A DNA stretch of 46,576 bases from Dimargaris cristalligena (lineage: Eukaryota; Kickxellomycota; Dimargaritomycetes; Dimargaritales; Dimargaritaceae): assembly GCA_027576995.1 (NCBI GenBank), contig JANBQC010000130.1:1-46576 (forward strand), written 5' to 3'. The first letter of the stretch is position 1; each line of letters opens with the position of its first letter. Under the pieces are notes generated by a model. The model ran no database searches and had not been told where the DNA came from. It saw only the letters and a list, made by a program, of their open reading frames with translations. Both the position numbers and the translations under genes were made by a program. Below are positions 15,266 through 39,332 of this stretch, piece after piece.

Positions 15266-18200
15266 ATAGGCGATGGCGGAGGAATATGTTATGAGATAAC
15301 GAGGCGATAATGAAGCGGTCCAGGTAGCGTTAGACCGAACGGCAGGGCTGCGGAGGCCGGGCAACAAGTCAGAAGGGAATGTTATGCAGAGAAGGTGGTT
15401 TAGACAATTGGACTGAGAATGCAGAGATGGAGACGAATTGGCGGAAGTTAGAACGGGTGGAAGAGAGTAGTGGGGGACCACTGGACGAAGGAGTGGGCTG
15501 GGGGAAGAGGGGTTGGACTACATACACACAGCCCTTCTGTCCGCATAGAGCGATGATATGCACCATGTAGGGGAGGGAGTTTAGGCCATCTGAGTCGCCT
15601 TCTGAATCGCCACTGGCCATTTTATCTAGGCGCCAGGAGTAACTACCGCCCCATTATGTCACCACCAAAAACATTGGCAGTACCATCACCATTTCCATCT
15701 GGGGGGACCTTTCCCCACAGACACATGGGTCAATCATCCCTTTACCACACCGCCCGCTTGCACAGCCTCTCAGATTGCACCTGTAATTATACATTAGTAC
15801 AATCACGATCCTTCCGACATCATGCCTCAGCCGACTGACCTGTGTTGTGTTCCCCTATCAGCCCTATAAAGATGAACCATTTGTCCCAGTTCTCCATTCA
15901 GCAGTATGTATCCGGTTTCCCTTAAATGTAGCCCGATATCTCAGCATAATTATGAAGGCCTTTGTGGAATTAGGGCTGGGCAGTAGGTAAACAAGTGGTG
16001 GAGTTTGGGTTCAATCTATACACATCACGTGAGTACCCCTCGCTACCCAGCTGGCGTATTCGGAGTAGCTAAAAGTGGTTTCTAGTGAACCTCCCGGCCC
16101 CTGTTCGCTTAGTACGGCAGCCCATGCGCTGGTGTAGTGGTGATTAGAACTCCGGTGCAATTGCGCACACTATTCAGTGACCACGCCCTATAGGGCGAGA
16201 CGGCTGTAGCATGGGTGCCTTATGTTGTATAAATGGTTGATTAGAAATGCCTCCCAGGGATTTAGGGTCATTAAATCATAATTACATTGCTGATTGTGGT
16301 CGTATCAGCCGCCAGTTATTAAGAAACATAAGCATTCTTCAGCACCTCTTGTCAACGGCATTTGTTATGGTAAACAGCCACACCCTGCCTTCCGGCGCCT
16401 TCCCCCGTACCATACAGAGGGAATTTCCTGAGAAACTACTGTCCACCGGTTCTTCTATTTGTAATTTGTGTACCCTTGTATTAGATTACATCACCCAGCC
16501 GGATCATGAGACGGTAGCCCAACCATATTCCTTGAGAAGTAGCAGTGAACAATGTGTAATATTTTACGAGTGGTTGCCCGATGTGAATTACAGTAAACCT
16601 TACCTATAGGGTATCCATAAACTACAGTGCCCAATGTTGGGGCTTCACATTGGCAACTGTCGTAATCAAGATTTCCACCATGATTATCCAAACCAGCCGA
16701 TAAAGTCGCGGATTGCAATTTAGTTTACAAGTTCTGGCAAATAAGGCTGTTTTCAATAGAGCCCACCCTCCACACGTCAATACCAAGGCAATTATTACTC
16801 TTTCCCGCCGGAAGTCCGCTAAAGCCTTCCAATTCAGCAATTGGTTGTTTCAGCTTAAACCGTCCAAAAGCCTCTGATCAATTGTACCGGTCAGTAAGTG
16901 CCTCGGTGGAAGTCCCTCCCTGGCCACTTGTGGTCCTTCGCAACCTGTCGCAATAGTCCAAGTAGATAACCCCAATGAGGATACTACTTGGGTTCGATTG
17001 GATAGGGCCAGTCATTTACAAACTCCATCTGCACAATGGTGATGCCCCTTAACTTGTATTGTAAATGCCATCATCTTCTGAACACTCCCAAACCGAAACC
17101 AACTCCGCTGTGGATTTTAACCAGTCAGTCTGGTGGTCAAAACACAGTGGCCTGTCAGGACCTACAACTAGATAGTCCCGTTGGATTCCACCTCATATTT
17201 TCACCTGCAGGGTCGACTAACCGAATCCACCAGTATTGTAAAAAATACATATACACGAGATTAATTATATGCCTATCCCTAGGGACATCAGTCCTCTCTG
17301 CTACTTCTTACAGTACAACAGGTCACTCCATTTCCATCCAAAGGAGGACTCTTGACTCATAATATCACATTATATATTTTTCATTGCCAGTCTCCTCAAA
17401 TCTAAAATTTACGCCTGTCTTGTGTATCCCAACGATAACACGCCCTTTAGGGTATTCCCTAAGATAGTAAACTATTGCAGCTGGTCCTAGGCTGATTTTC
17501 CACCCTATTGACAAGCTATTACCGGTAATACACATTCATTTGGTAGAATACTCCGTTGGAGACAGATAACTGGATTGAATATAATTACAATGGTGTGGTA
17601 TATAATGCGAACGTAGGTTAAGTAGTAAAACTGCTTTTAACTGAGTAAGAATACGGGAGTTTACCAATAAAAATGAATCCAACTATAAAATATGTTGTTC
17701 GGGAAGTCCCTTAATTGTAGAGTTACCAAGGGTCGGGGTTCCACAACCGAACTGGCGAAGTATTTTTTTCTTACTTTTCCTGACTTTTCCTGCTCCTAAA
17801 ATTATCAGATGAGCCCCCATTACCTTTTATATTTTTACATCCGATCCTCTCGCCACTAGAGCTGTTATTACATCATTATAGTCCAGACTTTGACACGAAG
17901 CGCCAAGACCTGTAACTGTAGCGATATTCAAGGCGGGCATTGAGCCACTGTAAATTTTTCCGTCAATAGCAGAAATGGAAGTGTGCAATTTAACACATAA
18001 TAGGCATAAGTAAATGCCCTTGGAGACTCTCACACCGTCCACATAAATTGGCAATGCAATATTTTCGTTACATAGCATTGAGATGTCACCTATTATATAC
18101 AAGTGCCGTGAATTTTAGAATCTGGTGTAGATTTTGCCAACGACAAACTATAGAAAAATTTACATCACGGCTTTCCCGCCGTGCTTAAATGTAAAGCGAA

Positions 18201-21200
18201 AGAAGACCAGAGGAGGCCCGATAAACTTTATTACGGCTACTCCAGTAACATTGGTGATTATACAATTCCAAATAAATCTACAGTGCTCTACCCCGTCGAT
18301 CCATGTCCGCGGCATAACCATACTGTCGCCTGGTGATGTGGGTATCTCCTTCAACTGAGGTTTATATTGGCCGTTATCCACCCAAGCGCTGGGCCAATTG
18401 CCAAGTTCGAACAGGAAGGCTTTAGGATGGTTTTCACTATGGTAGGAAATGGCCTCTAGGTATAGTAGCCACCACTGGAACGGCCGTAATCGGAAAAAAT
18501 TATTCATTTGATTGTTTTTGCAGGCCTAAAAAGTCGATATAGACCTATCTACCATTGGGCTTCACACCCCGCTGCTGAGACCAGGCACTCCGTTGTTTTT
18601 TCCATATCAGTAATATTATTTTACGGCTGCGGTGTAATGAATTTATGATCTACCCAGCACAGATAGGCCAACTATATATGTTCGTCATTCAGTGTATTCA
18701 GGTGCTAATTAGGGCACCCATCGGCCCTAGGACCTCAATCAAGGGTGATAAGCATTTCTAGAGAGGGGAGGAAGCCATAGGATTCTTGATAGCCAGGTGT
18801 TTTAAGAATATTTTGATAGCACTGCTAGCGCCGATACTAAGCTGAAACCTCGTATAAACAAGTCTACTGCAGCTACTTCGGATGGTCATTAAGACTCCAT
18901 TATCAACTCAGGGCAGTAGTAACCTTAGAGAATGGTTAATCTCAGTGAAATGATCTCACACAGTAGCGGTTTCGGGGATAATATATAGCCACGGAGGATA
19001 TGGGTACATTTTATCGCGTTCGAAAACCGCCATTTTGCATACCTCCCAATGAAGCTATTCAGTGTCGGTGATTTTAAAAGGAAACTTCCAAAGACGGGCG
19101 TTGTTGCACATAGCCACACTAGATGTAACCGGTGTCTCCGCCGGTTTCATCTTCTCATACTATTAGCCGACTAAAGACGCAGATGGCTTGAATTCCCCTA
19201 ATGAATGGGGGTCATGGGTAGAAAGAACCGCCGGGAGGTCACTTATTGAGTCTACAGATGAAATTTCGAACCATTTTACTCGTATACCATTAATAATCGG
19301 CTAATATAGAGTTGGCTAGAGAACGTCAACTATTCCTATATCGTGGTACTTTTACAGGCCTATCCGCCGGTTATTGTACAGCCTTGCCGCCTTGGACGGG
19401 CTTCCCTTGCCCTCACTAGTATCGCCCATTTGATAAACTAGCCATTCTCAGCTGAAAAAAATCAATTATGCACTGGCCTTTACTATGATAAATTTATTAT
19501 CGGACGCCAAATACCAGAATGAACCAACGGACTATTTGGATAACTGATTCTCCCTATAAGCGGCCCTATAGCTCGACAGTTATACTCCGATTTACCGACT
19601 CCAACATTGTGACAGGGTCCAAACTATGCCGGGGTAAAGGGACCAGGCGTCCCAGCTGTATATTGGCGACGTATATCCTTTAGGCTAAGGGCACCTCGCG
19701 AACATACCGCACCCGTCTACCTTGAGAGTTGCGGACCTAATGTGTATATTTTTTATAGCGGCATTTCCATAGTATTCCTTGGGCTTCTTTTCGCCAGTGG
19801 TCCCCACTCAGTGCCCGATTTAAAGGGGCGGCGCTTGAACCGGGTCCTTCAACTGGTGGCCTAATTGTAGGGAGTATTTTAGAGCGAAACAAGTGTACAG
19901 CCAATACAGCCCATTGTTCAAGCCATGTCACCGGAATTCCTCGCCGTTTAGTTCGGACTGATAAGATCATTTATGACCCTCCCAGTTTCCACTCCATAAC
20001 CCATTGGGTACATTTCGTAGAATAACACCTATTCGTTTGACTATTATCCCGAAAGGCATACCTCTACGAACGGGCATTGCACTGGGATTATAAGCGAGGT
20101 CGGCAGTAGATTCGATGGCAATAATATGTCAATGAGGCAAAGTGAGAATCTTAGGTTGGGGCCGAATTAAGATGCAAGTCCTATGCATATTCAACATAAA
20201 GGAACCCGACATTAGTGTATTCGAACCCATAGACATTAGGAAGATGAGGGATAATATATAGGGATATATATGTTAACTGATATGGCGGGCCTAGTCCATG
20301 TTTTGCAATTGGTATTTCGCAAAACGCCGAAATCCGATTACGGTAGGATGAAGGGTCTATCGGTTCCACAGTCACGTGTATACCCATCTGGTTAAAGTAT
20401 TATCCCTACGGTACACTACCCCAGCCCAACCTGTGGTTTGACCAGCAACACTGGATAAGCTATAGGCCACTAATACTTTGGGAAATGGCCGCCTGTGTTA
20501 AAGTATTTTCGACGGACATGGCTAATTGCTTGCCATTTTTAGTGGGCTCGCTAACTGATCACCTACATATTCGTCTAAAATAATTGAGACTTTCGCATTT
20601 CTGTGGTCTGTAGACAGACAGCGCTCTACCCTACCCTTGAACGATTTAGCTGTTAGTAAGGAAGAATTTACCGGTAACATTGTTAATCCGGTTTTATTTT
20701 TATAATGTTAACCTCTCACTGTAAATTGGACAGCGGCTGGTCTTTGCCGCATTCTTTCGACGATAGCCAAGCGAGCGGCCGAAAAATGGCCTCGGCTAGC
20801 CCACCCCTCTTAGTCATGCAGATAAACCGTTATAATGAGCCACACGGAAAGCGCCGCTGGGGCTTAGTAGGTCACAAAAATGACGAATGTAACCGCAGCT
20901 TATTCTTGAACCACTCTTACCAATTCATTAATTGGTTTGGGTGGTACCACCATTTAAACCTGCACAAGAGAACAGGGGTTGGCCTCATTCCCCCATTATC
21001 CTTCATACGGGAGATTCATTGTGCCCCGGCGATGGCTCAACAAATCATGTAATCGTCGCTTTTGGATTCAACGCAAAACCCAGCGAGTCCCTCCGACATC
21101 TCCACTACTGGCCAGGCATTTTTACACCAAGGCACTCTCTCTCCCAAGTAACTGGCTATTGGCGCGGCTTATTTATAAATACTGTATTGCTCGCACAGGA

Positions 21201-21284
21201 TTTCTGCCAAGACTTACCCTCTGTAGTGCTCTTGTTTACACCTTTGACTTCCCTATTACATTTTTGTAAGACCCTTAGACCAAC
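15266..21284. other. Six-kilobase gene-poor region
   Basis: I find no supportable gene here. Open frames reach only about 120 codons, occur on both strands and have no family signature. CpG is present at ordinary frequency, unlike the 27-29 kb segment. The first few hundred bases hold the TSC2 promoter and 5' UTR; the last 150 hold the promoter of the secreted-protein gene. Two minus-strand frames in the same phase (18160-18507 and 17827-18102) are the only stretch I would re-examine. I looked for tRNA A/B-box pairs and found none that fold. Confidence 0.5.
21174..21181 (+). promoter_or_regulatory. TATA-box candidate for the 21.3 kb gene
   Basis: TATAAATA lies 104 bp upstream of the ATG at 21285, with pyrimidine-rich DNA between them. 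Position and sequence suit a core promoter. Confidence 0.45.
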
Positions 21285-22973
21285 ATGAAAGTCTGTATTG
21301 CTCCGACCCTTCTGGCCTTTTTTTCCTTCGCTACTCTTGGAAGGGCCACCGAAACACCCGATGAGACGCTAGGAAACCTCATTGAACAGCTGTTACCCTA
21401 CGAACTCCGAGTAGCCATCGGACACCAGCTGTCCATTGGTGATTTTGTCCGAAAAGCCGATTTTATAAACCAGAGCCTGGTCCAGAACCATCTTGCTATC
21501 ACTAATCGAGTAAGTTATTTTCCCCCGTCATCTCGGCCCTCTTTTTGAATCGTACTCGTATTCCCATTCCTAGGGCGAAAATGCCCTGGGCACGCTCCGT
21601 CCTTGTGGCCCATTGGGGCCTTCAATTGTGTAGAGATGCATTTGCCGGCTGTCTAATCAGTGTGTTATTGGGGTTTGCTTGTGGGGGACATTGGATTGTA
21701 TATTACGGATTATAACTGATAGATTAACAAATTATTAGAAGATACATCAATTGCACTCGAAGCGGTGGAAACCTTGGACCAACGAGTCCCAGAGAATTCG
21801 GCTCAACAGATCCTGCAATTTACGGCCGATTTTTATTCCCTAGCCCGCCTCGAGTCCTGGGCTCAGATGATGGGGAGTTTTCTGAGTGAATTCCAGGATA
21901 TTCCTTTAAACCAAGACACCTTGGACGAGTCCTCGATTGACGATGAGAACCCCATGAGCTACCGGCCTATCGAATTTTTCAAGCTGATCAGCGCAAATCG
22001 CCTCGCTCCGATTTTACAAAAGGAAACGTGGAGAGTAGTCAGTGTTCCTGCCTTATCAGCCTTTCAACTAAGACAGCTATTCCCTTTAGTGCCCTATGCC
22101 AATGCTGGCACCATGGTGTATTTGGAGCGGATTTACCGCTCCACCTCAACCCACTTTAGCCTGCTACATGAACCGCAATCCACTATGGATACCCATTTTG
22201 GGACTGCTCTTCGACTAGCCCCCGAGTCGGTGGATGCCCTTCAGCTGGCCCGTACACCAGTGGGGGGATCGATTGAGCTGGCCATTCCCATGATAACCTG
22301 GTACCTCCACCACCGCCAATGGACGACTGAGTTGGATAAGTTCTTCACGGCCCTTCTGCGCTCAGTACCGTCGGAGGCCGGGGGGAACGGCCAACACCGC
22401 ATTAGCCATGTGGCCGGTAGTGTGGCTTACCTTTCTCTAACCCTTGCTGCCATTCGTAAGGACTCGGCAAGGGTGAAAATGCTGAGCGAACTGCTGGTTA
22501 CGGTGGAAATCTTTGATGGTGCTGACCAGCGAGCCAGCCATATTTTTGAAAGTCAAAAACAGCCGTTTATCGAGTGCCTTGCTGCCCGAGATTTGACCGA
22601 TGTCGCCCGATTCCTAGCCAATACCTGGGGAGTGGAAGTCAGCCTGAATAATTACAATGCCGACCGCACCACCTGTTGGTACCAGTATCTTGGTAGTCGC
22701 TGGTTTACACTCACTCCGAAAGGCGAATTGGGAGTTCAGGTGCCGATAAATTTACTTGGAATTACCTTGGAAGCCAACCAGTACATGGATCCTGGTGTTC
22801 AAACCGATTTCCCATCGTTCCAGCCGGTGGAACGGGCGGTAAATGCAATTTATAGGAAAAACAGGACTTTATTCAGTCAGGCCGCGGATTTTGTTAAAGG
22901 GAATTATCGCATAGCATTAACCCTCCTGGTTGGGATGGCTTACTCCCATTGGATAAATCAACGTTTTCTTTGA
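21285..22973 (+). CDS. Secreted helical protein of unknown family (two exons)
   Basis: Predicted 491-residue protein, join(21285..21509, 21723..22973). Exon 1 ends at a GTAAGT donor at 21510 after codon 75. The acceptor is the AG at 21721-21722 (ACTGATAG), which restores the same phase; the intron is 213 nt. Residues 1-20 form a good signal peptide (MKVCIAPTLLAFFSFATLGR), so the product is probably secreted or lumenal. The rest is mostly amphipathic helix with few cysteines, a possible N-glycosylation site (NQS, about residue 62) and a mildly hydrophobic C-terminus (ALTLLVGMAYSHW) that could be a weak membrane anchor. I recognise no domain. Codon choice and uninterrupted length make exon 2 convincing as coding. 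Lineage-specific secreted protein is the safest description. Confidence 0.75.
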
Positions 22974-23648
22974 AAGAACTCGTTTTTGAGTAATGTTGGC
23001 GATTAACGTAGCTAATGAACAATGTTTGTTGTTGTTTTTCTAGAACGGCAAGAGTAATGGGAGGGACGTTTTAGGATGTACAGCATGACTGCGGTAACTA
23101 GCTTGGCGATAAATGATAAATAGCAGGGATCCAATAATTTTATACGACACCGCACACAGGTTGAGTCGGTATAGTGGGCCACTTTTTGTACATACCAAGG
23201 AGGGAACTTGCTATAGTGGATTGTCCGGATACGGAAATGGTCGTCGAAGGCACATGACTAGTGAAGAATATATGATGGTATTAGTGGGAGGAGTGCCAAG
23301 GGACGCGTGGGCGTTCGCCACCCCGGCCCACCTTAATTGCCGTCGTCACCCATTTGCTGACTAATCCACCCCTGATTCGAATTTACAATGGCCTAAGCCT
23401 AATTATCGGAGCATCAATGGGAGAGGGCTCCAGAGATTCGTCACCCATTGGGCTACGGTTTGTTGGAATTAGTGCTGGTGGCTGGATAATAATGGTGCGC
23501 CTGGCACTCAAGAGTCGCTTTTATCACTTTAAGGGTATAAAGCCCCTAAGCCGTCTTCTCGGCTTTTATAAAACCCTAGCCTGCCCACCCGGACCAAAGC
23601 CCGACATAAATAACGGAAACATTATTCCAACCATCTCACTATTTTTTC
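22974..23648. other. Intergenic and promoter of the first CLD1-like gene
   Basis: Short overlapping frames only. The right-hand 120 bp carry promoter-like sequence for the gene at 23649, including TATAAA motifs. Nothing else stands out. Confidence 0.45.
23567..23573 (+). promoter_or_regulatory. TATA box of CLD1-like gene A
   Basis: TATAAAA is found 82 bp upstream of the ATG at 23649, in a C-rich leader. Spacing is right for a transcription start around 23600. Confidence 0.55.
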
Positions 23649-25673
23649 ATGCATCTCGTAGTTCGCTTGTCTCACCTGCCCAAGCCAATTCACCGCTTGT
23701 CCGTCTACTCATCCCTTCAGCCCGTTCGTAGAACGGCACACGCTTCTAAGCTGCGTTTCATTTCGGCTTCGTATTCCCCCCCTGTTTCCAGTGAATATCC
23801 ATTTTCCTCACTCTCAGTGCCCCCTATGGCGTCCCTCGGCGAGTCCCAGCCTAGCGCCGGCTTACCCAAGCTGTCCATGCCCTTCCACCATTACCTTACC
23901 ACATTGCCCGGTCGGTGGCCGTCGACCCATTTTAAGGCCCGGCATGCTGAAGTACAACTTCTATCGAGTCTCCCTATTTTTCGGCCTTCCGAGCCCCTAG
24001 AGGCCTACCTGGCCCAACTCCGCGCGGGGGGGCGTCAGGAGGACCCTGCCTCTTCCACCCCTGGCAAGTGCCCAACAGGTCGCCAACGCCACGCCACGGG
24101 TCTCGTTTCAGGTCTGCTAACCCGTTTATCACCTTTCAAACATGTGAACAAGACCTCCTCGGAGGGTCCCAGTAGTCCAGCCGCCTCGGGCTCCCCTACT
24201 TCTGCTTCCAGCCGCCGGTCTTTCGCCAGTCAAACCACCAGTGAGTTGGAGTCGAACGGCGTTCGAGGCCCCGGACCCCACGGTGACATGGTGGCCCGAT
24301 TGGGTTCTGTCGATATTGGTGACGGCTTATTCGTCCGGACTCTTATGATTGACTCGGACGATGCCGCCACCTTAGAGGAGCGTGCCGATCGCCCCACCTT
24401 GGTAGTAGCCCACGGCTTTGGTACCGGTCTAGGAATTTTCTTCCGCAATTACGAGCACCTCGCCAACCATAGTGGTCGTCGGGTGTTCGGAATCGACTGG
24501 CTGGGTATGGGCCTAAGTGCTCGCCCCACTCACCTACCCTGGCATAAACAACGCGAAACTCCCGCTAATGCTGCCACCGAAGAGCCAGTGCATTGGGGAA
24601 CCGACGAAGGTTCGGCCGCCCAGGTCCGTGAGACCGAAGAGTTCTTTGTGGATTCTCTGGAACGCTGGCGGGAAGCCATGGGCATTTCTAAAATGGTCCT
24701 ATTGGGCCATAGTTTCGGCGGTTACATGACAGCACTCTATGCCCTGCGCTACCCCGAGCGGGTCGAAAAACTCATCTTGGCCTCGCCCATGGGCGTGCCC
24801 GAAATTCCCGAGGGGTTCCTTCCCTGGGTGGACGAACTTATGAAAGGCAGCGGCGCCGACGCCCTCCCAGATTTCGGCCCCACCCGCCCCAAGGCCTCCA
24901 CTTGGTTACCGGGGTCGGAAGTGCCACTGGTTCAGCCCAACACGGGCCCTGCGGATGAACAAGCCCGCCCACTGCCGCCACCGGAAGTACAGGCCGCCAT
25001 TGCAAAACAAACGCAGGAGTATACAGGGATCGACCTCACGGCTGACACCCAGCTGGATTCAAATCCCGATGTGAATACTCCCCTGGTCAACGATACGGAC
25101 GTGGACGATGCCACCGCCGAATCCCCTTCCCCGCCGGCGAAGCCCGCCGGCCCAAAACCTTTGTTTGGGAGCCGCCAGTTTATGTTCAAACTGGTGGCCT
25201 ATTGCTGGCGTTCCCAGTCCTCCCCGCAATGGTTTGTGCGCAATTCAGGCCCACTGGGCTCTTACCTAGTGAACCAGTACATCAGTCGTTATGAATATCT
25301 GGCTAAACCGGAACGCACCGCCCTCTCGGACTACTTGTACCACTTGGCTACCCGTCCCGGATCGGGCGAGTATTCCATCACCATCCTGACCCACCCGTTT
25401 GTGATCGCCCGAAACCCCCTTGCGAGTCGCCTCCACGATCTGAAAGTGCCTACCGTTTTTATGTACGGTGAAACGGACTGGATGGACTACCGGGGGGCTG
25501 AGGCAGCAGCCGCTCGGATGCGAGTCCCCACGAAAATCGTTCATATTGGCGACGCAGGCCATAATCTCATGGTGGAAAACCCCGAGGACTTTAATGCTTT
25601 CCTGATTCAGGAGATGAAGGAGGGTCCACACCTTAGCGGCCAAGAAACCCCAACTGAAATTAATGGGGAATAG
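23649..25673 (+). CDS. CLD1/ABHD5-like alpha/beta hydrolase A, probably mitochondrial
   Basis: Intronless 674-residue member of the ABHD4/ABHD5/CLD1/ICT1 group, whose fungal members deacylate cardiolipin and other phospholipids. Residues 1-45 are rich in Arg, Lys, Ser and hydrophobics and have no acidic residue, a typical mitochondrial presequence as in yeast Cld1. The hydrolase core has the oxyanion segment HGFGTGLGIFFRNYEHL, the nucleophile elbow LLGHSFGGYM (Ser355), the group-typical segment around SPQWFVRNSGPLG, and FMYGETDWMDYRGAEAA bearing the likely catalytic Asp. His638 is in HNLMVENPEDFNAF. The HX4D box of the family reads HX4E here (Glu643). A Pro/Ala/Asp-rich insertion lies in the lid region (about 430-510). 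A diverged paralogue sits 8 kb downstream on the same strand. Substrate is inferred from the family, not seen. Confidence 0.9.
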   Translation: MHLVVRLSHLPKPIHRLSVYSSLQPVRRTAHASKLRFISASYSPPVSSEYPFSSLSVPPMASLGESQPSAGLPKLSMPFHHYLTTLPGRWPSTHFKARHAEVQLLSSLPIFRPSEPLEAYLAQLRAGGRQEDPASSTPGKCPTGRQRHATGLVSGLLTRLSPFKHVNKTSSEGPSSPAASGSPTSASSRRSFASQTTSELESNGVRGPGPHGDMVARLGSVDIGDGLFVRTLMIDSDDAATLEERADRPTLVVAHGFGTGLGIFFRNYEHLANHSGRRVFGIDWLGMGLSARPTHLPWHKQRETPANAATEEPVHWGTDEGSAAQVRETEEFFVDSLERWREAMGISKMVLLGHSFGGYMTALYALRYPERVEKLILASPMGVPEIPEGFLPWVDELMKGSGADALPDFGPTRPKASTWLPGSEVPLVQPNTGPADEQARPLPPPEVQAAIAKQTQEYTGIDLTADTQLDSNPDVNTPLVNDTDVDDATAESPSPPAKPAGPKPLFGSRQFMFKLVAYCWRSQSSPQWFVRNSGPLGSYLVNQYISRYEYLAKPERTALSDYLYHLATRPGSGEYSITILTHPFVIARNPLASRLHDLKVPTVFMYGETDWMDYRGAEAAAARMRVPTKIVHIGDAGHNLMVENPEDFNAFLIQEMKEGPHLSGQETPTEINGE

Positions 25674-26098: not shown

Positions 26099-26431
26099 TT
26101 AACTACGCCGCTCTTCGTACTTCTGGCGGTTGAAATAGGGATAGTTTTTGAGGGAAGACCACCATGAGGATATCGGCGGCTGGGTCGTGGATCGGATATT
26201 GTCGCTATTCCCTGGCGTCTTCTTTAAGGCCTCGCCGGTTCGGGGGGTGCTTATGGGAGAGTTGCGATGATCAAGTTCGTTTTTCATGTACATGGCCGTA
26301 TGCATCATCGAGCGCCTGTTCAGCCGAGGGTTAGTTGCCGAGGTCCCCTGGTTCGCGGACGCGGCCATGGCGGGGATGTTGAAAGCAACGAGGCCCAAAA
26401 GAATCAATGGGAGCGCAATTGTTCGCACCAT
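26099..26431 (-). CDS. Small secreted protein 1, dibasic-processed family
   Basis: 110-residue protein. The ATG at 26431 has a strong context (ACCATGG) and opens directly into a signal peptide (MVRTIALPLILLGLVAFNIPAMA). An upstream in-frame ATG at 26518 would bury that signal behind 29 residues and is less likely. After a short spacer comes TNPRLNRR followed by SMMHTAMYMKNELDHRN; the RR at 39-40 fits cleavage by a Kex2-type protease, leaving a mature peptide of about 70 residues. The tail carries PPISSWWSSLKNYPYF and a charged end, and there is no cysteine. The gene at 30500-30832 encodes a clear paralogue of identical length, with the motif TNPxLxxRSMxxxxxYxKN and a matching P-[IV]-S-[SA]-W...YP segment. 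Function unknown; effector, signalling peptide or defence peptide are all open. Confidence 0.75.
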   Translation of the reverse strand: MVRTIALPLILLGLVAFNIPAMAASANQGTSATNPRLNRRSMMHTAMYMKNELDHRNSPISTPRTGEALKKTPGNSDNIRSTTQPPISSWWSSLKNYPYFNRQKYEERRS

Positions 26432-27381
26432 GGTAAATTCAGGATTTGGCAATGGAAGTAAGCAGGGGAGGGGAAGGCCAAAATGAAACTTCGATAAAAA
26501 GAACGGTAGGCAATGCAATACACGGGCTACTGTCGAGTAGTCTTTAGTTTAACCAGAGTGATTGAGGGTGAGTTTGGAGGGGATATATCTCAGTATAGGT
26601 ATACTAGTCGTGCCTTTTATATAAACTAGACAGCTGTTTCGCTGGGACACCTCTCATCTAGGCAGAGTATCCATCCCCTTGACCATGTGTTCATTCACCT
26701 AGATGAGTTTGGTACTCATATTGTTTAAAGGGTGAGACCACTACGAATATACTGTGTATTTGGGGGCGCTGCCCGTAATATTGGATATAAACTTAGCGAA
26801 GGTATAATGTAGTTGGGAGTATAAATATCCATTGACCCTTGTCGACTCCCTCGTACCACTCTCCCTGTACTCCCCAACCCACCCTGGGCCTTCCCTTTTC
26901 CCTTCTCGATTATTATTCTTGGAATTGCAGCATGTGGAGCTACGAATAGCTTAGTAAAGAATGAAGCCGACATGGCCATGGTCATATTCTTTCTTTTCTC
27001 CCCTTTATATACAAATGTGGACTGATGAAAGGGGGACGTTGAAGAACCCTGCTCAGTCTTCTATTCTTGAACTCATGGAGGCTATGTTCAGGCGGACCAT
27101 CATGACAATGCTCTGCGGGCCCCCCTCCCTCTGTCCAAATTAGGCATCTGGAATTCCAACACATGTGAGGGTCTCACGGCTGTAACCATTACCACTGGTG
27201 ATAAAAGCCACAGATTTCCTTTTATGTATTGGCAGAAGGTCGATTGAATTAAAGGGATTTAGTCCCAGCCATTGATAGCAGCATGTAGCTGAGGAGGGGA
27301 GGGGATATCGTGCTGTACCCCCTACAGTAGAAATGTAGCAAAAAATACTAATATAAGACTAGTGGAAAATACAAATCCCCG
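26432..27381. other. Intergenic, upstream of small secreted protein 1
   Basis: Contains the promoter of the secreted-protein gene and short frames only. An 86-codon minus-strand frame (26725-26985) has no signal peptide or family match, and the TATA-like sequence at 27001-27011 is too close to its ATG to serve as its core promoter. CpG dinucleotides are still present but become rare toward 27,300. Confidence 0.4.
26614..26623 (-). promoter_or_regulatory. TATA box of small secreted protein 1
   Basis: Read on the minus strand this is TATATAAAAG, about 180 bp upstream of the ATG at 26431. The match to the TATA consensus is strong and suggests a leader of about 150 nt. Confidence 0.5.
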
Positions 27382-29161
27382 ACATACCAGTTGCAATAAT
27401 AGACCCTAGCTAGTGGTTGATTCAGCATTTGCAATGATATTCAAAAATCTGGAGAGTCCCTTTTTAGGGCTGATCAATTAAGTACCATGACTAACACAAG
27501 TGAAGATTTGCCCACATGGCTACAATATCTATTAGTGTTAAAATTAGGCAAATATCTAGCTCTTTTTTATCACTGTCAGCCCTCCTAATCTGACTTAACC
27601 CAGACCTAATGATTGCCTGTTCCATTCTGGCCTTATAAAGCCATATTGACCCTCCCATAGTCACCCCCAGTACTATGGGGCATCCTTTATTATATAACCC
27701 CACCCATTTGACCCCAACACTAGCACCCTAAACACTCAACTTGCTGATCCAAGACTTTTCCAGTTCCCATGAGAGTCTTCCCAATGCAAATTCATCTGGT
27801 TGGATTCTTTACTTCTATACCTTAGTCTTAGTAGTATTCCCTTAGGACCTCCCTCTGGAGCTGTCCCTATGTATATATAACCAGGCCCCCACTGGGGCTG
27901 GTTCCATGCCTTAGCTTATTCTTATCCCCCAGTTTACCTCAAAAAACTCTATATGCTTATTCCCCTTGTACTGACTAGTAAGTGTACCTACTGCATATCC
28001 CTGATATTAACCTACATCTATCCTTTATTGGTTAGTACTATGCCCCCATCCTAGCACTAGTAGCCCACTTGGCTGAGCCTAAGCCCCACCTACTGTTAGA
28101 AGCCTATCCTTGGAACTCTTGATGGACTAAGAGTGGTTAACCCAGGTAACAATCACATAGAGCAGTCACAAATATCCGAGATGATTGGGCCAATTTATCT
28201 TACTTTTAACTATTGACTCATCAGACCTATGACTGTACAAGCCTCCTCTTTTGTTTCCATATTCCCTTGCACTAAATAGTAGGCTATATGGCACATCCCA
28301 TTCTATCATTAAGAGGGAGGTCTTACTTTGGTAGCTATCCATTTCATGATTAGAGCTCCCAAAGACAGGTTTATTAAGTGTAGGTTGTAAAACAAAAAAT
28401 AGACTGTTGCTCCAATAGTATTCCTGCCAGTTGGCCATACTCAAATCCATGGGTGATATAGTAGTGTGATAATAATAATAGCATAGGGATACAAAGCAGT
28501 GCTAACTATATCAGCAACTTACTAGTTTTTATCAAATATAGACAATATCACCCTGTAATTATACTACCTGGGATGTCCAGCCTATTGCTAGTAGCCTTTG
28601 GAATTTATAAGGAGGCAGTGGCCTCCTTATCAGTACAGCCTAAAGTTGTGGTGGCCAGCTCCCTGGTGGCAGAAGATGGGAGGTTTGCAGAGTTGGATAA
28701 GACTGGGGCAGAGTTGGGTGCTGTCATAGCAGGATTTTGGAGGGGTGAATGATCAGTAAAATAAATGGAGGATGGGGATATAAACAAGGGGTGCAAAAGT
28801 TTATTGAAAGATAATAAAGAACAGTAATGTTAATAATAATAAATCAATAGAAAAAGGCATAGTAGAGTTTAAGGAATAAAAAATCAGTTCAAATAAAACA
28901 AATAGTGATTGTTCTTCTCTTAAAAAATAAGCAAGAATTTACTGGTTACTTATGTAACTATTTTGTGGGCCTTAGAGGCTGCTGGGTGTAAAGAAAAGGA
29001 TGTAGAAAATAATCAGCAAATGGAGTAAAATGGAAGGGAAAAGAATCCACCAAGAAATAAGTCAGACTTTTTAATGTAAACTATATGTGTAAAATTTAAT
29101 AAGATTTTTGGTATTCTTAGTATATGCCACAGTCTAGGTGGCAGTTTTAATGGGAAAGTGG
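27382..29161. mobile_element. CpG-depleted decayed repeat (probable transposon relic)
   Basis: Reading line by line I find one CpG (28177-28178) in about 1,780 bp, although the segment has plenty of C and G, and CpG is common in the genes and in the 15-21 kb region. Such loss is the usual mark of long-term cytosine methylation of a silenced repeat. On the minus strand it holds short broken frames, e.g. 28166-28450 and a Ser/Thr/Ala-rich one with an ATG near 28730 that stops at 28605, followed by A/T-rich leader-like DNA. I recognise no transposase, reverse transcriptase, LTR pair or target-site duplication, so the class is unknown and the ends are set only by the CpG change. Confidence 0.4.
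28607..28630. repeat. Perfect 10-bp inverted repeat with 4-nt loop
   Basis: Left arm ATAAGGAGGC (28607-28616), loop AGTG, right arm GCCTCCTTAT (28621-28630). It lies inside the CpG-depleted segment, at the stop of a minus-strand frame. It could form a cruciform or RNA hairpin. Confidence 0.8.
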
Positions 29162-30499
29162 CGGGAATGATACTGCTGTTATATATTGTGGTATATTCCG
29201 CCCTTTGATAACAAAGACTGGCCATCCATAGTCTGGGGTTAAGTGCCGACCTCCAGATGGCACTACATATTCCCTACCTCCCCCTCTACCCACCCCCAAT
29301 TTTTTTGGGATAATAAATACTCTTTTATACTATAATTGGCCCCCCTTTATTTTTTACATTACTCAGTATAGAACTAAAAACCAATTATGTGTCATTAAAA
29401 CAAAGCAATTTGTTGCCTATGACAACAAACCATGTAAGGTATGTTCTAGAGTTACTATAGGACCTGTGCAGAAAAAAAAACACATAAAATTGAGCCACCC
29501 AGCCCCCCGCTTTCTACCCCAGTTAGTTTAACTACACCTTAGTTGTACTTGCCGGTCTAGCCTAAATTTTGACACTGATTACAATTTCCTAAGGAGTTTA
29601 ATTGGATGGGTTGGCCACACCACAATTGATGAATAGTTCTATCGGACTTTCAGGAACAATCTTGCCTGACACTATAAACTATAGCCCGCCATCCCAAATG
29701 GAGGTATTATTTTACACCCAAGGAGGATCTGGATCAAGGTTCATCAAATAATTCCAGACACCCCTCCAAAGAAAACCATTGTGAATGAACAGTCTGCCAA
29801 ATACCAGACACGTCATACATCCATAGGCCCCACTATTACATCTTATGAAGTAGTGATGTAAATGGTTGTGTGTGGGTTTGTTCAAGTTGATCAGCAGGAC
29901 ATTGGTTGTAAACAATCAGATTGATATCTCCTGTGTTTCAACATTAGGTGTTTTATTGGGGTGACATCTGATGAAGTTATCTGGGATTTCAAATATAGAT
30001 AAAGCAGGAGAGACAATAGAAAATGTATCAAGCATCATGGACTATCAACTTCGGAAATAAATGACAATATCCTATAGGAGTGAACTTATCCTGGGTGGTA
30101 TTCCCGTTAAACTCCAATATACCACCGAGGCCTGAGGGGTTACTATTAATAGTGGAGGTTCGTAATGTCGGTACCTATTTGATGATTATAGCCGATACGC
30201 CTCAAGTTAAGTTCGGAATATTCCCTCGGTATTCTAGTATCAATTAGCGCTATACGATTCAATTCGTGTGTAGGGAAGTTTGTCGAACCTGGAAAGCGAT
30301 GGCGAGCAAAATATTAATGATTACTAAAAAAAACCACAATCCGAAATATATTTATGAGGTAGGGCCCGTATGGAACTAAGCCAGTGTATATGAAGTAATT
30401 TCCAGGATACATATTATATATATATAAAAATCTTCCGGCGTGGAAGGTTTGGGCAAAAACCCTATTCCCTTCTTCACCTCCTCCAGCCCTGAATACGGT
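29162..30499. other. AT-rich intergenic DNA left of small secreted protein 2
   Basis: CpG remains sparse up to about 29,600 and then returns to normal, so the decayed repeat may extend that far. No frame above 70 codons has any support. A TATATATATAAAAA stretch lies at about 30,416-30,430. Confidence 0.4.
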
Positions 30500-30832
30500 C
30501 TAAATACGGCATCCCCTGCGCCTGGGATGGAACAGGGAAGGGTAACAGCTAAAAATCGCCCGCCACGCCGAAACTGGTTTGGCTTGTATCTGAGCAGGAC
30601 TACCGTGAGCCGGGCTCTCCATTGGAATCCGTTCGACCAGATTGGCCGCAGTGGTGGTTTCGGGTGTATCGCGATTGTTCTTAAGATACAAGAGTACGTT
30701 AAGCATGGATCGCTTATCCAAGTGGGGATTGGTGTCTACCCCATGTCGGCCGGTCGGCAAAGGAACGGCATAGTCGCCGAAGGTAATGACGATACATCCG
30801 ATGAATAAGGCTAAATTTACCAAGCGAACCAT
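30500..30832 (-). CDS. Small secreted protein 2, paralogue of the 26 kb gene
   Basis: 110-residue protein, exactly the length of small secreted protein 1. The ATG at 30832 starts MVRLVNLALFIGCIVITF, a hydrophobic signal sequence; an in-frame ATG 12 codons upstream would mask it. The dibasic KR at residues 40-41 in TNPHLDKR precedes SMLNVLLYLKNNRD, matching the paralogue's core almost position for position. The tail has KPVSAWRAIFSCYPSLF and a basic end with two cysteines (96 and 108) that the other copy lacks. Conservation is concentrated just after the dibasic site and in the Trp/Tyr-Pro segment, as expected for a processed secreted peptide. It lies 2.7 kb from, and divergent to, CLD1-like gene B. 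No known family recognised. Confidence 0.72.
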   Translation of the reverse strand: MVRLVNLALFIGCIVITFGDYAVPLPTGRHGVDTNPHLDKRSMLNVLLYLKNNRDTPETTTAANLVERIPMESPAHGSPAQIQAKPVSAWRAIFSCYPSLFHPRRRGCRI

Positions 30833-31081
30833 TATGGAAAGACTAGATGCGAATGGGTGTATGATCAAAAATACTTGAGTACCAATTATTAATAGTATAT
30901 AAAATATGGTAGTGAATGATTAATTAGCGGAAGCTATTAAGAGGTGGTGCCATCGGGTGTGGTAGTAAATCCACTCGTTTCGAAGGAATCGATAGCAACG
31001 GTACATATCAGAGTCGGGATTCTGGCCCACAGCTGCTTAAATACAGCTAGCCACTGCTCGTTCCCTTCCCAGTACTACCGG

Positions 31082-33552: not shown

Positions 33553-35562
33553 ATGGCAGCCACTGCTCTAACCCAGCCATTAACAACCGCCAACTCATCC
33601 AACCCGTCTACCGAAAGCCCGTCCGGTTCTCCGGGCTGGTCATTCCGTATCCCGTCTTTAACGGCCTCGATTGGCACGTTGTACAACTATCTCCCGACCT
33701 GGCAGAGTCACTGGCCCTCCACCATCGACAAGGCCACATTAGCTGAACGCTCCCTTTTGTCAACTGTTCCCCTATTCGACCCTACCGTTAGTCTGCAGGA
33801 GCATCTAGATGCGCTGCTTGATCTCCACCATGACCACAGTGGTGACCCCACCTCCCATGGAGAGGAAACCACCGGCAGTTTGGACGATGGTACGGCGGCG
33901 GGGCTTTCGCCTTTAGGCCCCCACGGCCGCCTCGCCATTTATCATTCGCCCCAGTCCGCACCCAAGGCGTATGTAGGGTCCGTTGATATTGGTGGAGGTC
34001 AGACCATCCGGACCCTGGCAATCCATCGACCCGTCCCCACCTCGACTTGCACTAGTAGGGCTGCTAAGTCGACCCATGACGTGCCAGCAAGCCATCACCA
34101 TACTGTGACCTCTGCCGCCGCGCCCATCGTCATGTTGCATGGCTTCGGGGGTGGGCTGGGCATTTATTTTCGCAATTACGCTCCGCTGGCGGAGGCTACC
34201 CCCCAACGCGTTATATACAGTGTCGACTGGATTGGGATGGGACTAAGTTCACGCTCCGAGACCCTCCCGTGGGTCCGCCCTGGGAATGGTTCGCCTTCGG
34301 CATCGTCTTCCGGTTCCTCCTCATCGGAGTCGGAGACCGATTCGGAATTGGGTGACGAGAGTGGAAGTACCTCTAAAGGGGAGGTGGTGGCCCAAACGGA
34401 GGATTTTTTTATTGATGCGCTAGAAAGGTGGCGCCTAACCATGGGCATCCCCCAGATGTACCTTATGGCCCACAGTTTCGGTGCGTACATGGCCGCCCTC
34501 TACGCCAACCGCTACCCCCACCGGGTCGAACGACTGGTCCTGCTTAGTCCCATGGGAGTATCGCCCACCCCGCCGGGCTACGACGCATGGGTCCGGGAGA
34601 TTCTGCAAGGCAACTTTAACTGTCCGTTACCGCGCTGGGCCTTTAAACGACCAACTGCCCCGAAGTGTTGGCGACCTACCAATTGCACCCCCGGGCAGTC
34701 GATGGATACCCCTAACCAAGCCCATGGTTCGCCGGAAACCCCAGTGGCGGACATGATGGATCCGATGGAACTTATGGTGGGCGGGCCCAAGTCGACTGCC
34801 GTCCCCGTTGCCGAAGTCATGTTGGACACCGCCCCTTCCGACGATGGTGTCCAAGACCATGCCGCGGATCTTCCACCGGACTTTAAAGTACCCGCGGGCT
34901 TCCGATTGGTACCCCTGGACAACGATCCCGAAGCCCGTCTTCACTTACCCGGTGCGCCCGAGAGTTTCTTAGGCAGTCTCCGGTTGCACGGTCCCTTTTT
35001 TTACCATATTTGGCGATGGAATCTCTCGCCCCAGTGGTTTGTACGGGCCACTGGACCATTGGGCCCTACTCTGATCACACGATTCTCCAGTAATAGCCGA
35101 CCGCAATCTTCCCAGCACACCGGCAGTAGCCGTTCACTTGAACCGGAGGACCATTGTAATTACGCTGAGGGCACTACCACAACTACTACACTGACCAGCC
35201 ACTCCGCCGACCTGGCCCAACAGCGGTACTTGGAATACATTTACCATTTGGCCGCGCAACCGGCGTCGGGCGAATACGCCTATACCGCCCTTCTGACCCC
35301 CTATGCCTTTGCGCGCGCACCCCTGACACCCCACCGCCTGGCTGCCGTCACCTCCCCCGTGACCATTGTCTACGGCGAACACGACTGGATCAACCACGGC
35401 GGGGCCGAGGAACTGATCCAGCACTTGCCCACCGGATCCCGGGTGACTTACCTCCCGGGTGCTAGACATAGCTCCATGGTGGAACAGCCTGACCAGTTCA
35501 ACGCCTTTATGCGGGAGGAACTCACCTTGACCGCGAAGAGCGAATCATCCCCCCGACCATAA
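33553..35562 (+). CDS. CLD1/ABHD5-like alpha/beta hydrolase B
   Basis: Intronless 669-residue paralogue of the hydrolase at 23649-25673, alignable over nearly the whole length (WPSTIDKATLAERSLLSTVP, GSVDIGGGQTIRTLAI, LHGFGGGLGIYFRNYAPL, SPQWFVRATGPLG, VTIVYGEHDWINHGGAEEL). The N-terminus is Ser/Thr/Pro-rich without the basic residues of copy A, so it probably acts outside mitochondria. The nucleophile elbow reads LMAHSFGAYM: Ser308 is present but the first Gly of GxSxG is Ala306. His639 sits in HSSMVEQPDQFNAF, again with Glu at the end of the HX4D box. The lid region has acidic and low-complexity insertions (Ser/Glu-rich near 255-275; Ser/Thr-rich before the final Asp). The family hydrolyses or transacylates lipids; the exact substrate is unknown. 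Confidence 0.9.
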   Translation: MAATALTQPLTTANSSNPSTESPSGSPGWSFRIPSLTASIGTLYNYLPTWQSHWPSTIDKATLAERSLLSTVPLFDPTVSLQEHLDALLDLHHDHSGDPTSHGEETTGSLDDGTAAGLSPLGPHGRLAIYHSPQSAPKAYVGSVDIGGGQTIRTLAIHRPVPTSTCTSRAAKSTHDVPASHHHTVTSAAAPIVMLHGFGGGLGIYFRNYAPLAEATPQRVIYSVDWIGMGLSSRSETLPWVRPGNGSPSASSSGSSSSESETDSELGDESGSTSKGEVVAQTEDFFIDALERWRLTMGIPQMYLMAHSFGAYMAALYANRYPHRVERLVLLSPMGVSPTPPGYDAWVREILQGNFNCPLPRWAFKRPTAPKCWRPTNCTPGQSMDTPNQAHGSPETPVADMMDPMELMVGGPKSTAVPVAEVMLDTAPSDDGVQDHAADLPPDFKVPAGFRLVPLDNDPEARLHLPGAPESFLGSLRLHGPFFYHIWRWNLSPQWFVRATGPLGPTLITRFSSNSRPQSSQHTGSSRSLEPEDHCNYAEGTTTTTTLTSHSADLAQQRYLEYIYHLAAQPASGEYAYTALLTPYAFARAPLTPHRLAAVTSPVTIVYGEHDWINHGGAEELIQHLPTGSRVTYLPGARHSSMVEQPDQFNAFMREELTLTAKSESSPRP

Positions 35563-36597: not shown

Positions 36598-38905
36598 ATG
36601 CATTTCTATCTGCTCACCCCCAAGACCAAATCCGCTTCGTTTCTCCGTATTTTCCGGGTCAAGGGCGACAATCCCGAGGATACCCGAGTTATCCACCCGC
36701 TATCCGAAGCCACGGCCCACCGAGAACGCATGCGGGAGGCCCTCCGCGTCTACCGCCAAGGTCCCCAAAGCACTCCGAACCCGGCTGATGTGTCCAAACT
36801 GGTAGCCAGCATCGAGGCGTACCTACCCCACCTCTTCTGGTGTGTCAACTACTACGAACAGAGTCGATTGGACCAGGCCGGGCGAAACGGTGGCGGCGGC
36901 AGCAGTAGTAGCAGCAGTAATGGGAGGTCAAAGACCCCCACGGCCAGTTCGGTAATAGACTGCGAGGATTTTGGCATGACCGTGAGCAGTGATGAGGAAC
37001 TAGAAGACCCCTCCTCTGAGGGGGGCAATGGTGGTGGTCCAACGCCGGGCTTTTTAGACCCGGACCAGTTTGTCCACCACCATCACCAGCAGCAGCAGCA
37101 ACAGCAACATCAGCAGCCGCCGCCTACGGTGCGGGGGGGTAGTTTCAGCAGTAGTCGGTCGACCAGAATGCTCCAGGCTATCGGGGTTGGTCGATCGTCG
37201 ACCTCCAGCGCGGCCCCCACTTATACGGCCTCCCCCGTAAGTTCCACCGTGCCTACCGGCGGACCCGATACTGGTAGCACCGAAATGTTTATTTGGAAAT
37301 CCCCCTTGCTTAGCGGGCTCGATGACTCCACCCGGCTGGGCCAGTGGGCGAATAAACTCAAACGGGGTAAATTTGCCTCCAATTCCGTGTACTTTGAAAC
37401 GGCCTTTACGCTCCTCGCGTACGGGCTGGCCTTGTCGACGCTGGCGTTCCGCATGGTGGACGCCCTGACCATTTCGGAACGGGACCGGGTCATTGCTGAA
37501 GGGGATATCAAGAAATTTAAGCAGGTAAATAAATATACGATCATTTATATATGTATTTAAGGAAACGGGTGTCCGTGTGCCGACTAAGATTATGTTTTTT
37601 ATAAAAAAAGTCGTGTCTAGTCATGAACGACAACAGCCCCCAAAATTTTACCATGTACTCATCATCTCCCAACTCGATATCCTAAAAAGCATTACTGACC
37701 CCTCTATATTACTTTCGACATTTGGGTACGATTCTTTCATGTTTCCTCGAAAACAAGGCTATGCTGTATTTGTCCCAAGCAGCAGGCATCCACGACTACA
37801 TTCTCGAAAATATTTTGCCCAAATGGAAGTACAACGATGCTACGCACCGCCCCCCAGACCTGACGCCTGGTATGCTCCGCATTCTGTCAAAGTAAGTGTA
37901 ATCCAAATTAGTATCCCCGAAATGACTACTCTCATCTAACACTACCAACGGACAACCGTAGCGATCAATATTTGCGCAGGTGCTCAGACTCCGCAATCCT
38001 TAATTTACCATCTCATCATATCCACTTTGGTTAATGTTATTTTCTATTTTATTATATGTGTTTCATACGTGGGTTGGGGGGGGGTACTTTTTTAAAAAGA
38101 CTCGCTCTGGCCGATGCCCAACGGATCGCCATTCGGGTGTCAATGCCCCAAAAAACCTCGCCCGGCCTCGTGGCCAAACTGCTCATCGGCGTCGCGGAAG
38201 AGTACGACATTATTTTCGGTCTGTTCCAGGCCCAACATTCCGATGACGTCAAAGTTATGACCACTGAATTGCGCCGCTATATCAAAGACGGCCGGACTTT
38301 CCTGCTGGGCTGTGCGAAACGCTACTTGGCCCTGGATGCCCACAACGGTGACCACAATGGCGTGGCGGTGGGGTTTGCCCAGTTAGCCATGCAGGACTTG
38401 GAAACTCTGGTGAAGAAGAGTAGTGGGGGTCGATGGGCAATTGCTGTGGAAGCGACAAAATCGTTAAAGGAGGTGAAGGATGAGTGGCTGCTGTACAACA
38501 AACTTAACTCCACGGTAAGTAGACATTTGCTAGGATCCCGGAAGGAAAGAAGGAAGGAAGGTTTGCCTTAGTTAAGGGGGATATGGGGGACTTGGAGTCT
38601 ATATAACCTCTCTGGTTTAAAAGCATTTTTCTGGGGAAGAGGAGGGAGAAATTACCCAGGCGTAATTAGATGGACTAACGCAATTCATTGTATATGGATA
38701 TTGGTATTTTGAGGCGGGCTTTTAGGTGACTTTTGAATCGATACCCAACGAAGCAGAATTGAACCAGCGGATACCAGGGGGGCGGACCCTCCTAAAGATG
38801 AAGGTGTTCATCCCCATTGCTTTAGATCGAAATGCCGGAAGCCAGTTCAGTGAAACGTCCACGTCGACCGAGAAAAAATATGCGCTGCAGCACGAGTATT
38901 ATTAA
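36598..38905 (+). CDS. BRO1-domain protein, BROX-like (four exons)
   Basis: Predicted 551-residue protein, join(36598..37524, 37758..37891, 38100..38514, 38726..38905). Donors are GTAAAT, GTAAGT and GTAAGT, acceptors all AG; introns are 233, 208 and 211 nt, and all phases match. The product resembles the BRO1 domain of BROX/Alix/Bro1, a banana-shaped helical domain that binds ESCRT-III (CHMP4/Snf7) on endosomes. Diagnostic segments: FIWKSPLLSG with the helix SVYFETAFTLLAYGLALS, QAAGIHDYILENILPKW, then LADAQRIAIRVSMPQKTSPGLVAKL and the closing strand FESIPNEAEL. An insertion of about 140 residues (Ser-rich, acidic, then a His/Gln run near residues 160-175) splits the N-terminal part. There is no V domain and no C-terminal CaaX box (ends QHEYY). 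BROX-like is therefore a fold assignment; the cargo or pathway is not known. Confidence 0.82.
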
Positions 38906-39332
38906 TAGTTTGCTATCCCCATCCCTCTCTGAGGGCGGAGATTAACGAACAAACCGCGGTGTACGAATTATTACAGGATACCCCCTCCCCCAAATAGACC
39001 ACTATTAAAATCGACTCTAAATAAAACCTGACTCTAGCATTAAACTGGTGGTAACTCTTTAAAAGAGGGATCTGAGATTATCCGTTTATTTCCACGCTGG
39101 TGTAAAATGCAGCGTAATGGAATAGCGAAGGAGAGAGTAGCTGGAACATTATATAAACAAAAAAAATACGACAATAGGGTAGAGTAAGTCAATGATGATA
39201 TGGAAGGAGAGGAAGAGGGGAGTTATAAATGGTAAAAATATAATAATACGTCGATTGAATCAAGGAGGGAGGGGAGAATAATAGAGAAAAAGAGCGAAGC
39301 GTACCACCTTAAGCAAACGGAGTCAAGTTCAA
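38906..39332. other. Intergenic between convergent genes
   Basis: About 430 bp holding the 3' ends of the BRO1-domain gene (plus) and the alpha/beta hydrolase (minus). It is purine-rich on the plus strand toward 39,200-39,300. No gene seen. Confidence 0.5.
39020..39025 (+). terminator. Poly(A) signal of the BRO1-domain gene
   Basis: AATAAA lies 115 bp beyond the stop codon at 38905, within an A/T-rich stretch. Confidence 0.4.

Follow-up and report, generated by a model that had tools for sequence, protein, structure and literature searches.

Two small genes on the minus strand of a single contig raise the question of whether they are related, whether their products are secreted, and whether a conserved stretch around a pair of basic residues marks the point at which a Kex2-type protease would trim them. 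A sequence-only reading of this DNA had proposed exactly that, describing two paralogous proteins of 110 residues, each starting with MVR and a signal peptide, that match no known family and may be founder members of a lineage-specific one. In what follows the window is the whole stretch analysed, 46,576 bases long, which is the entire contig C130 of an assembly of 27,093,018 bases (27.1 Mb) in 779 contigs, and the two genes are called SSP1 (P0001) and SSP2 (P0002). Our answer, which we hold with a probability of about 0.6, is that they are a two-gene orphan family of neighbouring genes for predicted secreted proteins trimmed by Kex2.

Results

The gene pair and its homology

The coordinates, the length of 110 residues and the MVR start of both genes are as had been claimed, and a stop codon follows residue 110 in each (Table 1). 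Both proteins carry the blocks TNPxLxxRSMxxxxxYxKN and P[IV]S[SA]W...YP, and both have a basic pair immediately N-terminal of SM, namely RR at residues 39-40 of SSP1 and KR at residues 40-41 of SSP2. The equal length is partly coincidence, because their alignment takes four gap columns per protein.

Table 1. Positions in the window of the two genes, their predicted parts and neighbouring features
Feature	Position	Strand	Basis or remark
SSP1, predicted secreted protein gene (P0001), 110 aa	26099..26431	-	frame, homology and codon analyses
SSP1 residues 1-23, predicted signal peptide ending in A-M-A	26363..26431	-	hydropathy, -3/-1 rule by eye
SSP1 conserved core TNPRLNRRSMMHTAMYMKN, residues 33-51	26279..26335	-	alignment
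SSP1 putative Kex2 site L-N-R-R, residues 37-40, before SMM	26312..26323	-	motif rule, PMC8528282
SSP1 C-terminal block, residues 86-98	26138..26176	-	alignment
SSP1 nearest TATA-like string, 192 bases 5' of ATG	26618..26623	-	bare string match
SSP2, predicted secreted protein gene (P0002), 110 aa	30500..30832	-	frame, homology and codon analyses
SSP2 residues 1-19, predicted signal peptide ending in T-F-G	30776..30832	-	hydropathy, -3/-1 rule by eye
SSP2 conserved core TNPHLDKRSMLNVLLYLKN, residues 34-52	30677..30733	-	alignment
SSP2 putative Kex2 site L-D-K-R, residues 38-41, before SML	30710..30721	-	motif rule, PMC8528282
SSP2 C-terminal block, residues 86-98	30539..30577	-	alignment
SSP2 nearest TATA-like string, 69 bases 5' of ATG	30896..30901	-	bare string match
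Abhydrolase A gene	23649-25673	+	
Abhydrolase B gene	33553-35562	+	
Probable solo LTR (TG...CA), 578 bases, between SSP1 and SSP2	27574-28151		5-base target duplication ATCAC, 27569-27573 and 28152-28156

Paralogy of the two proteins is supported by several comparisons, all of which place their similarity above chance. BLASTP of the pair gave E=6e-10 with 30% identity over 105 columns (29% in the global alignment), and in whole-assembly searches SSP1 and SSP2 retrieved each other at E=2.6e-4 and 1.1e-4. When residues 1-25 were left off, the observed score was reached by 0/5000 shuffles in global and local mode, and the 10 identical columns of the 19-column core, which was picked after the alignment had been viewed, were matched by none of 20,000 codon permutations. 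Around the genes, BLASTN matched no corresponding 800-base flanks and gave just three hits, 10-14 bases long, when opposite sides were compared, and the best translated local scores, for which no null was run, were 29 for the upstream and 37 for the downstream flanks against 92 for the genes. SSP1 and SSP2 are a real two-copy pair, old and orphan.

Coding evidence and selection

Across 106 aligned codons the two genes are identical at 41 first, 65 second and 34 third positions. These values were compared with those of 500 shuffled-codon controls, each of which was realigned because a protein alignment by itself inflates positions 1 and 2. Identity at position 2 (60%) exceeded the null mean of 43% and was reached by 0/500 controls, whereas positions 1 (39% against 37%, reached by 174/500) and 3 (34% against 29.5%, reached by 81/500) stayed within the range of the null, a pattern that argues for an old pair kept by selection at the protein level. 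We therefore read the genes as probable old duplicates, with silent sites near random and a protein that selection appears to have kept. Among the residues that do not differ between the proteins, 31 in number, 13 have the same codon in both genes, a count that includes Met and Trp, for which there is no alternative. By NG86, dN amounts to 0.75 over the whole comparison, with 0.35 for the core against 0.88 for the rest. Conservation at the protein level is thus supported.

The GC content of SSP1 (0.55) and SSP2 (0.52) lies above the 0.39-0.45 of their flanks. When codon usage was trained on seven genes of the window, whose own scores range from 0.094 to 0.414, SSP1 scored 0.171 per codon, the highest of its six frames, and SSP2 0.012, the highest only marginally, the next frame having 0.003; random intergenic pieces of 330 bases scored as high in 24/5000 cases for SSP1 and 42/5000 for SSP2. 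Among 63 intergenic stop-to-stop frames, three outscore SSP2 and one outscores SSP1, all within 37700-39300, a stretch that could contain a gene of its own. For SSP2, codon usage gives weak support.

Secretion and the dibasic site

The maximum Kyte-Doolittle mean over 11 residues is 2.91 near the start of SSP1 and -0.31 elsewhere, and the corresponding values of SSP2 are 2.85 and 0.95. A hydropathy rule requiring a strongly hydrophobic segment close to the start and none further on, applied to the first ATG after each stop and with thresholds set after both proteins had been measured, was passed by only SSP1 and SSP2 among the 42 ATG frames of 80-200 residues in the window; the same rule overlooks gene A (described below), whose frame at 21285 also has a hydrophobic start. 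Of the earlier claim of signal peptides, the hydrophobic N-termini of secretion type are present, and the signal peptides themselves are predicted; both proteins would probably be secreted.

The Kex2-type site fits better than had been proposed, since the alignment places a Leu at P4 of both sites, LNRR/SMM in SSP1 and LDKR/SML in SSP2. The leader of yeast alpha-factor likewise ends in LDKR. According to Outram et al. (2021; PMC8528282), Kex2 favours a P1 Arg, a P2 Lys (or Arg) and, at P4, Leu or some other aliphatic side chain, Pro being allowed there too, and Asp at P3 was unfavourable in kinetic analysis; SSP2 carries such an Asp, which counts somewhat against its cleavage. The same paper looked for Kex2-processed pro-domain (K2PP) effectors by KR, RR or LxxR within the first half of a protein and preceded by disorder-promoting residues, and reports a Kex2-type motif for about 30% of 120 effectors. 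A single protein with the motif therefore says little; that two proteins otherwise 29% identical have both kept it says more.

One kexin gene was found in the genome that carries the pair: the kexin-type P domain (P_proprotein) has a single match in the assembly, on contig C159, where an 875-residue frame contains Peptidase_S8 and P domains and has yeast kexin as its best PDB match (E=1.2e-157), furin being weaker (3.9e-123). We infer cleavage at the dibasic site from the motif and this enzyme gene. Other dibasics occur in SSP1 at 70 (KK) and 108 besides that at 39, and in SSP2 at 104-106 besides that at 40; the basic residues close to the C-terminus (108-109 in SSP1, 104-106 in SSP2, the latter forming a second possible site, P-R-R-R) could allow further trimming.

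The putative cut would leave 70 residues of SSP1 and 69 of SSP2, with calculated pI values of 9.9 and 10.0, a charge of +4.6 each, and 0 and 2 cysteines, respectively. The first 12 residues past the cut are not strongly amphipathic (moments 0.15 and 0.26), which lends no support to a membrane-lytic peptide. Between residue 21 and the site, the disorder-promoting fraction is 0.90 in SSP1 and 0.67 in SSP2. AlphaFold2 models built from two-sequence alignments are of low confidence (mean pLDDT 55.8 and 53.2), and the pLDDT of the pro-segment is low, yet it is low across most of both models; in both, a stretch free of secondary structure leads up to a helix that begins at the dibasic site (39-56 and 40-52), followed by a linker, again without regular structure, and by a pair of short helices close to the C-terminus.

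Searches for further copies and relatives

Whole-assembly searches with SSP1 or SSP2 returned nothing beyond each other at E up to 10, and searches with each core returned only these two genes; a candidate must have words in common with the query to be scored at all, and very diverged copies could escape such searches. As a DNA pattern, TNPxLxxRSM had three matches in the assembly (reversed control 0), of which the third, on contig C25, was rejected as an extra copy, its frame being broken by stops and without a leader. The shorter pattern RSMxxxxxYxK had 33 matches (control 24), and the eight inspected by eye among the 31 outside the window gave no relative. A third copy was also considered on contig C723, beside a duplicated block described below, and dismissed, the best SSP match there reaching only E=0.18.

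The absence of a known family is borne out, with neither protein assigned to one in Pfam (E up to 0.1; 0/2) or in NCBIfam, a library made for prokaryotes (E up to 1; 0/2), and with no significant chain in the PDB, where SSP1 alone gave three weak rows (E 0.042, 0.26 and 1.1) and a profile of both sequences gave no row with an E of 1 or below. In a collection of 5.8 billion proteins searched at E up to 10, SSP1 retrieved only itself (eight candidates scored) and SSP2 nothing, not even itself (one candidate scored); absence from this collection is weak evidence, because SSP2 is missing as itself and the genome is incompletely covered. No confirmed relative was found in viral contigs (100 pattern stretches) or in prokaryote genome contigs (77), and a literature search, made by topic and not by sequence, found no paper on such a family by title or start of the abstract. 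The proposal of a founder family accordingly stands as regards the two paralogues and is weak as regards "founder members", with only two copies found in the assembly, and a restriction to the lineage is weakly supported.

Neighbourhood and genome context

The order of genes is abhydrolase A, SSP1, a repeat-rich and AT-rich gap, SSP2 and abhydrolase B, the abhydrolases lying on the plus strand and the SSP genes on the minus strand. The abhydrolases are also paralogous and diverged (42% over query residues 213-547), and the SSP and abhydrolase genes are each doubled side by side, in an order unlike one simple tandem block. The only other protein matching abhydrolase B at E up to 1e-20, among 7995 candidates scored, is called a "cardiolipin-specific phospholipase" by its source. 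The protein collection assigns SSP1 and abhydrolase B to different contigs, 42,002 and 55,165 bases long respectively, against the 46,576 of the window; this may reflect a second assembly of this organism, broken between SSP1 and abhydrolase B.

The 578-base element in the gap reads as a solo LTR from its ends and target duplication. At least 37 copies of at least about 460 bases and 81-88% identity are among the 50 matches listed for the query 27600-29400, a lower bound, with 40 of 628 candidates scored. An inverted pair (27593-27620 and 29217-29244, 71% complementary) had at first pointed to a single DNA transposon; the repeat boundaries and the target duplication fit a solo LTR better. A second repeat, at 28554-29271, is about 82% identical to stretches on contigs C687 and C162 and about 70% identical to one on C723.

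Gene A (21285-22973) consists of two frames, hydrophobic at start and end by eye and without a Pfam match, and its family is multi-copy, with 15 assembly matches for 21765-22973, itself included, on 13 contigs and down to 22% identity. Contig C723 (L043) copies window positions 20995-22832 and 23060-23884 at about 72-73% identity; this duplicated block (20995-23884 in the window) contains gene A but, of abhydrolase A, just the 5' end, the similarity stopping inside the abhydrolase gene. The same contig has a reverse transcriptase frame (RVT_1, L043:5789-6418). In the window itself, homologues of Raptor (574-5721) and tuberin/TSC2 (7841-15481), both of which belong to the TOR pathway, are neighbours on the minus strand. 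The assembly also has a match to Chitin_synth_1N (E=2.6e-26; 0/14 control genomes), a domain typical of fungi, which supports a fungal host.

Discussion

In the reading that we favour, the signal peptide would be removed at about residue 19-23, leaving a short pro-segment that terminates in L-x-[KR]-R, after which the genome's own kexin would cut during export. The cut would release a basic protein of 69-70 residues with a calculated pI of about 10, predicted to begin with a short helix (SMxxxxxYxKN) that a variable linker joins to a W...YP tail, and this protein would presumably have an extracellular role, at the surface of the hyphae or towards a partner or host cell. A more specific version, in which a lineage-restricted pair of peptides of about 70 residues, matured by a single Kex2 cut and lacking a cysteine scaffold, would have diverged as signals or host-directed effectors with a target each of its own, strikes us as quite unlikely.

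That the proteins are secreted and left uncut at the basic pair is possible, though we think it unlikely. TNPxLxxRSMxxxxxYxKN would then be one continuous binding element or helix cap, the basic pair having a structural or charge role, and the conserved block does extend across the putative cut, with T, N and P kept before it and S, M, Y, K and N after it, as a single uncut element would also show; the helix, too, begins at the basic pair in both weak AlphaFold2 models. The positions read by Kex2 (P4, P2 and P1) are nevertheless among the kept residues, and the genome has a kexin gene, both of which favour cutting.

We consider it improbable that each frame is an exon of some longer spliced gene, or a pseudogene remnant, the 110-residue proteins not being real products. 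The weak codon bias of SSP2 and its failure to be retrieved from the protein collection would agree with this, but both frames are intact, the translated scores of the flanks fall far below the score of the genes, and conservation at position 2 speaks for selection that has acted on the protein for a long time. That the frames are open by chance and the motif a coincidence is scarcely credible: the 42 ATG frames of 80-200 residues show that such frames occur in the window, yet the E-value of the pair and the complete failure of the shuffles and core permutations to equal the observed similarity speak strongly against coincidence.

With Kex2 trimming of a secreted pair as the preferred reading, several known classes invite comparison. 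Cysteine-rich small secreted proteins are defined by several cysteine pairs in the mature protein, and SSP1 and SSP2, with their 0 and 2 mature cysteines, fall outside that class. K2PP effectors such as SnTox3, as PMC8528282 presents them, share with our pair a hydrophobic N-terminal leader followed by a short pro-segment, the presence of KR/RR and LxxR in the first half, and a single N-terminal cut, which is expected for those effectors and predicted here; the pair differs in its 0 and 2 mature cysteines and in showing no significant sequence similarity to any PDB chain. Kex2-processed repeat proteins (KEPs), reported in early-diverging fungi (Le Marquer et al. 2019; PMC6339444), are likewise secretory precursors with Kex2-type sites, as SSP1 and SSP2 appear to be. 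Unlike them, however, KEPs contain several similar peptide units between the Kex2 sites; no repeated unit was seen by eye in either protein, Tandem Repeats Finder detected no arrays anywhere in the window, and SSP2, for all its second possible site, has no repeat of a peptide core.

Nothing in SSP1 and SSP2 points to an unusual mechanism, and they are new as sequences and ordinary in kind. Orphan secreted proteins are common in fungi, and, if real, this orphan family with a common processing motif would join the fungal small secreted proteins. The general picture would be unchanged, Kex2 pro-segments having already been described in about 30% of 120 effectors (PMC8528282). What the pair would offer is a concrete and cheap handle on kexin processing, in the form of the kept Leu-x-[KR]-Arg and its flanking residues.
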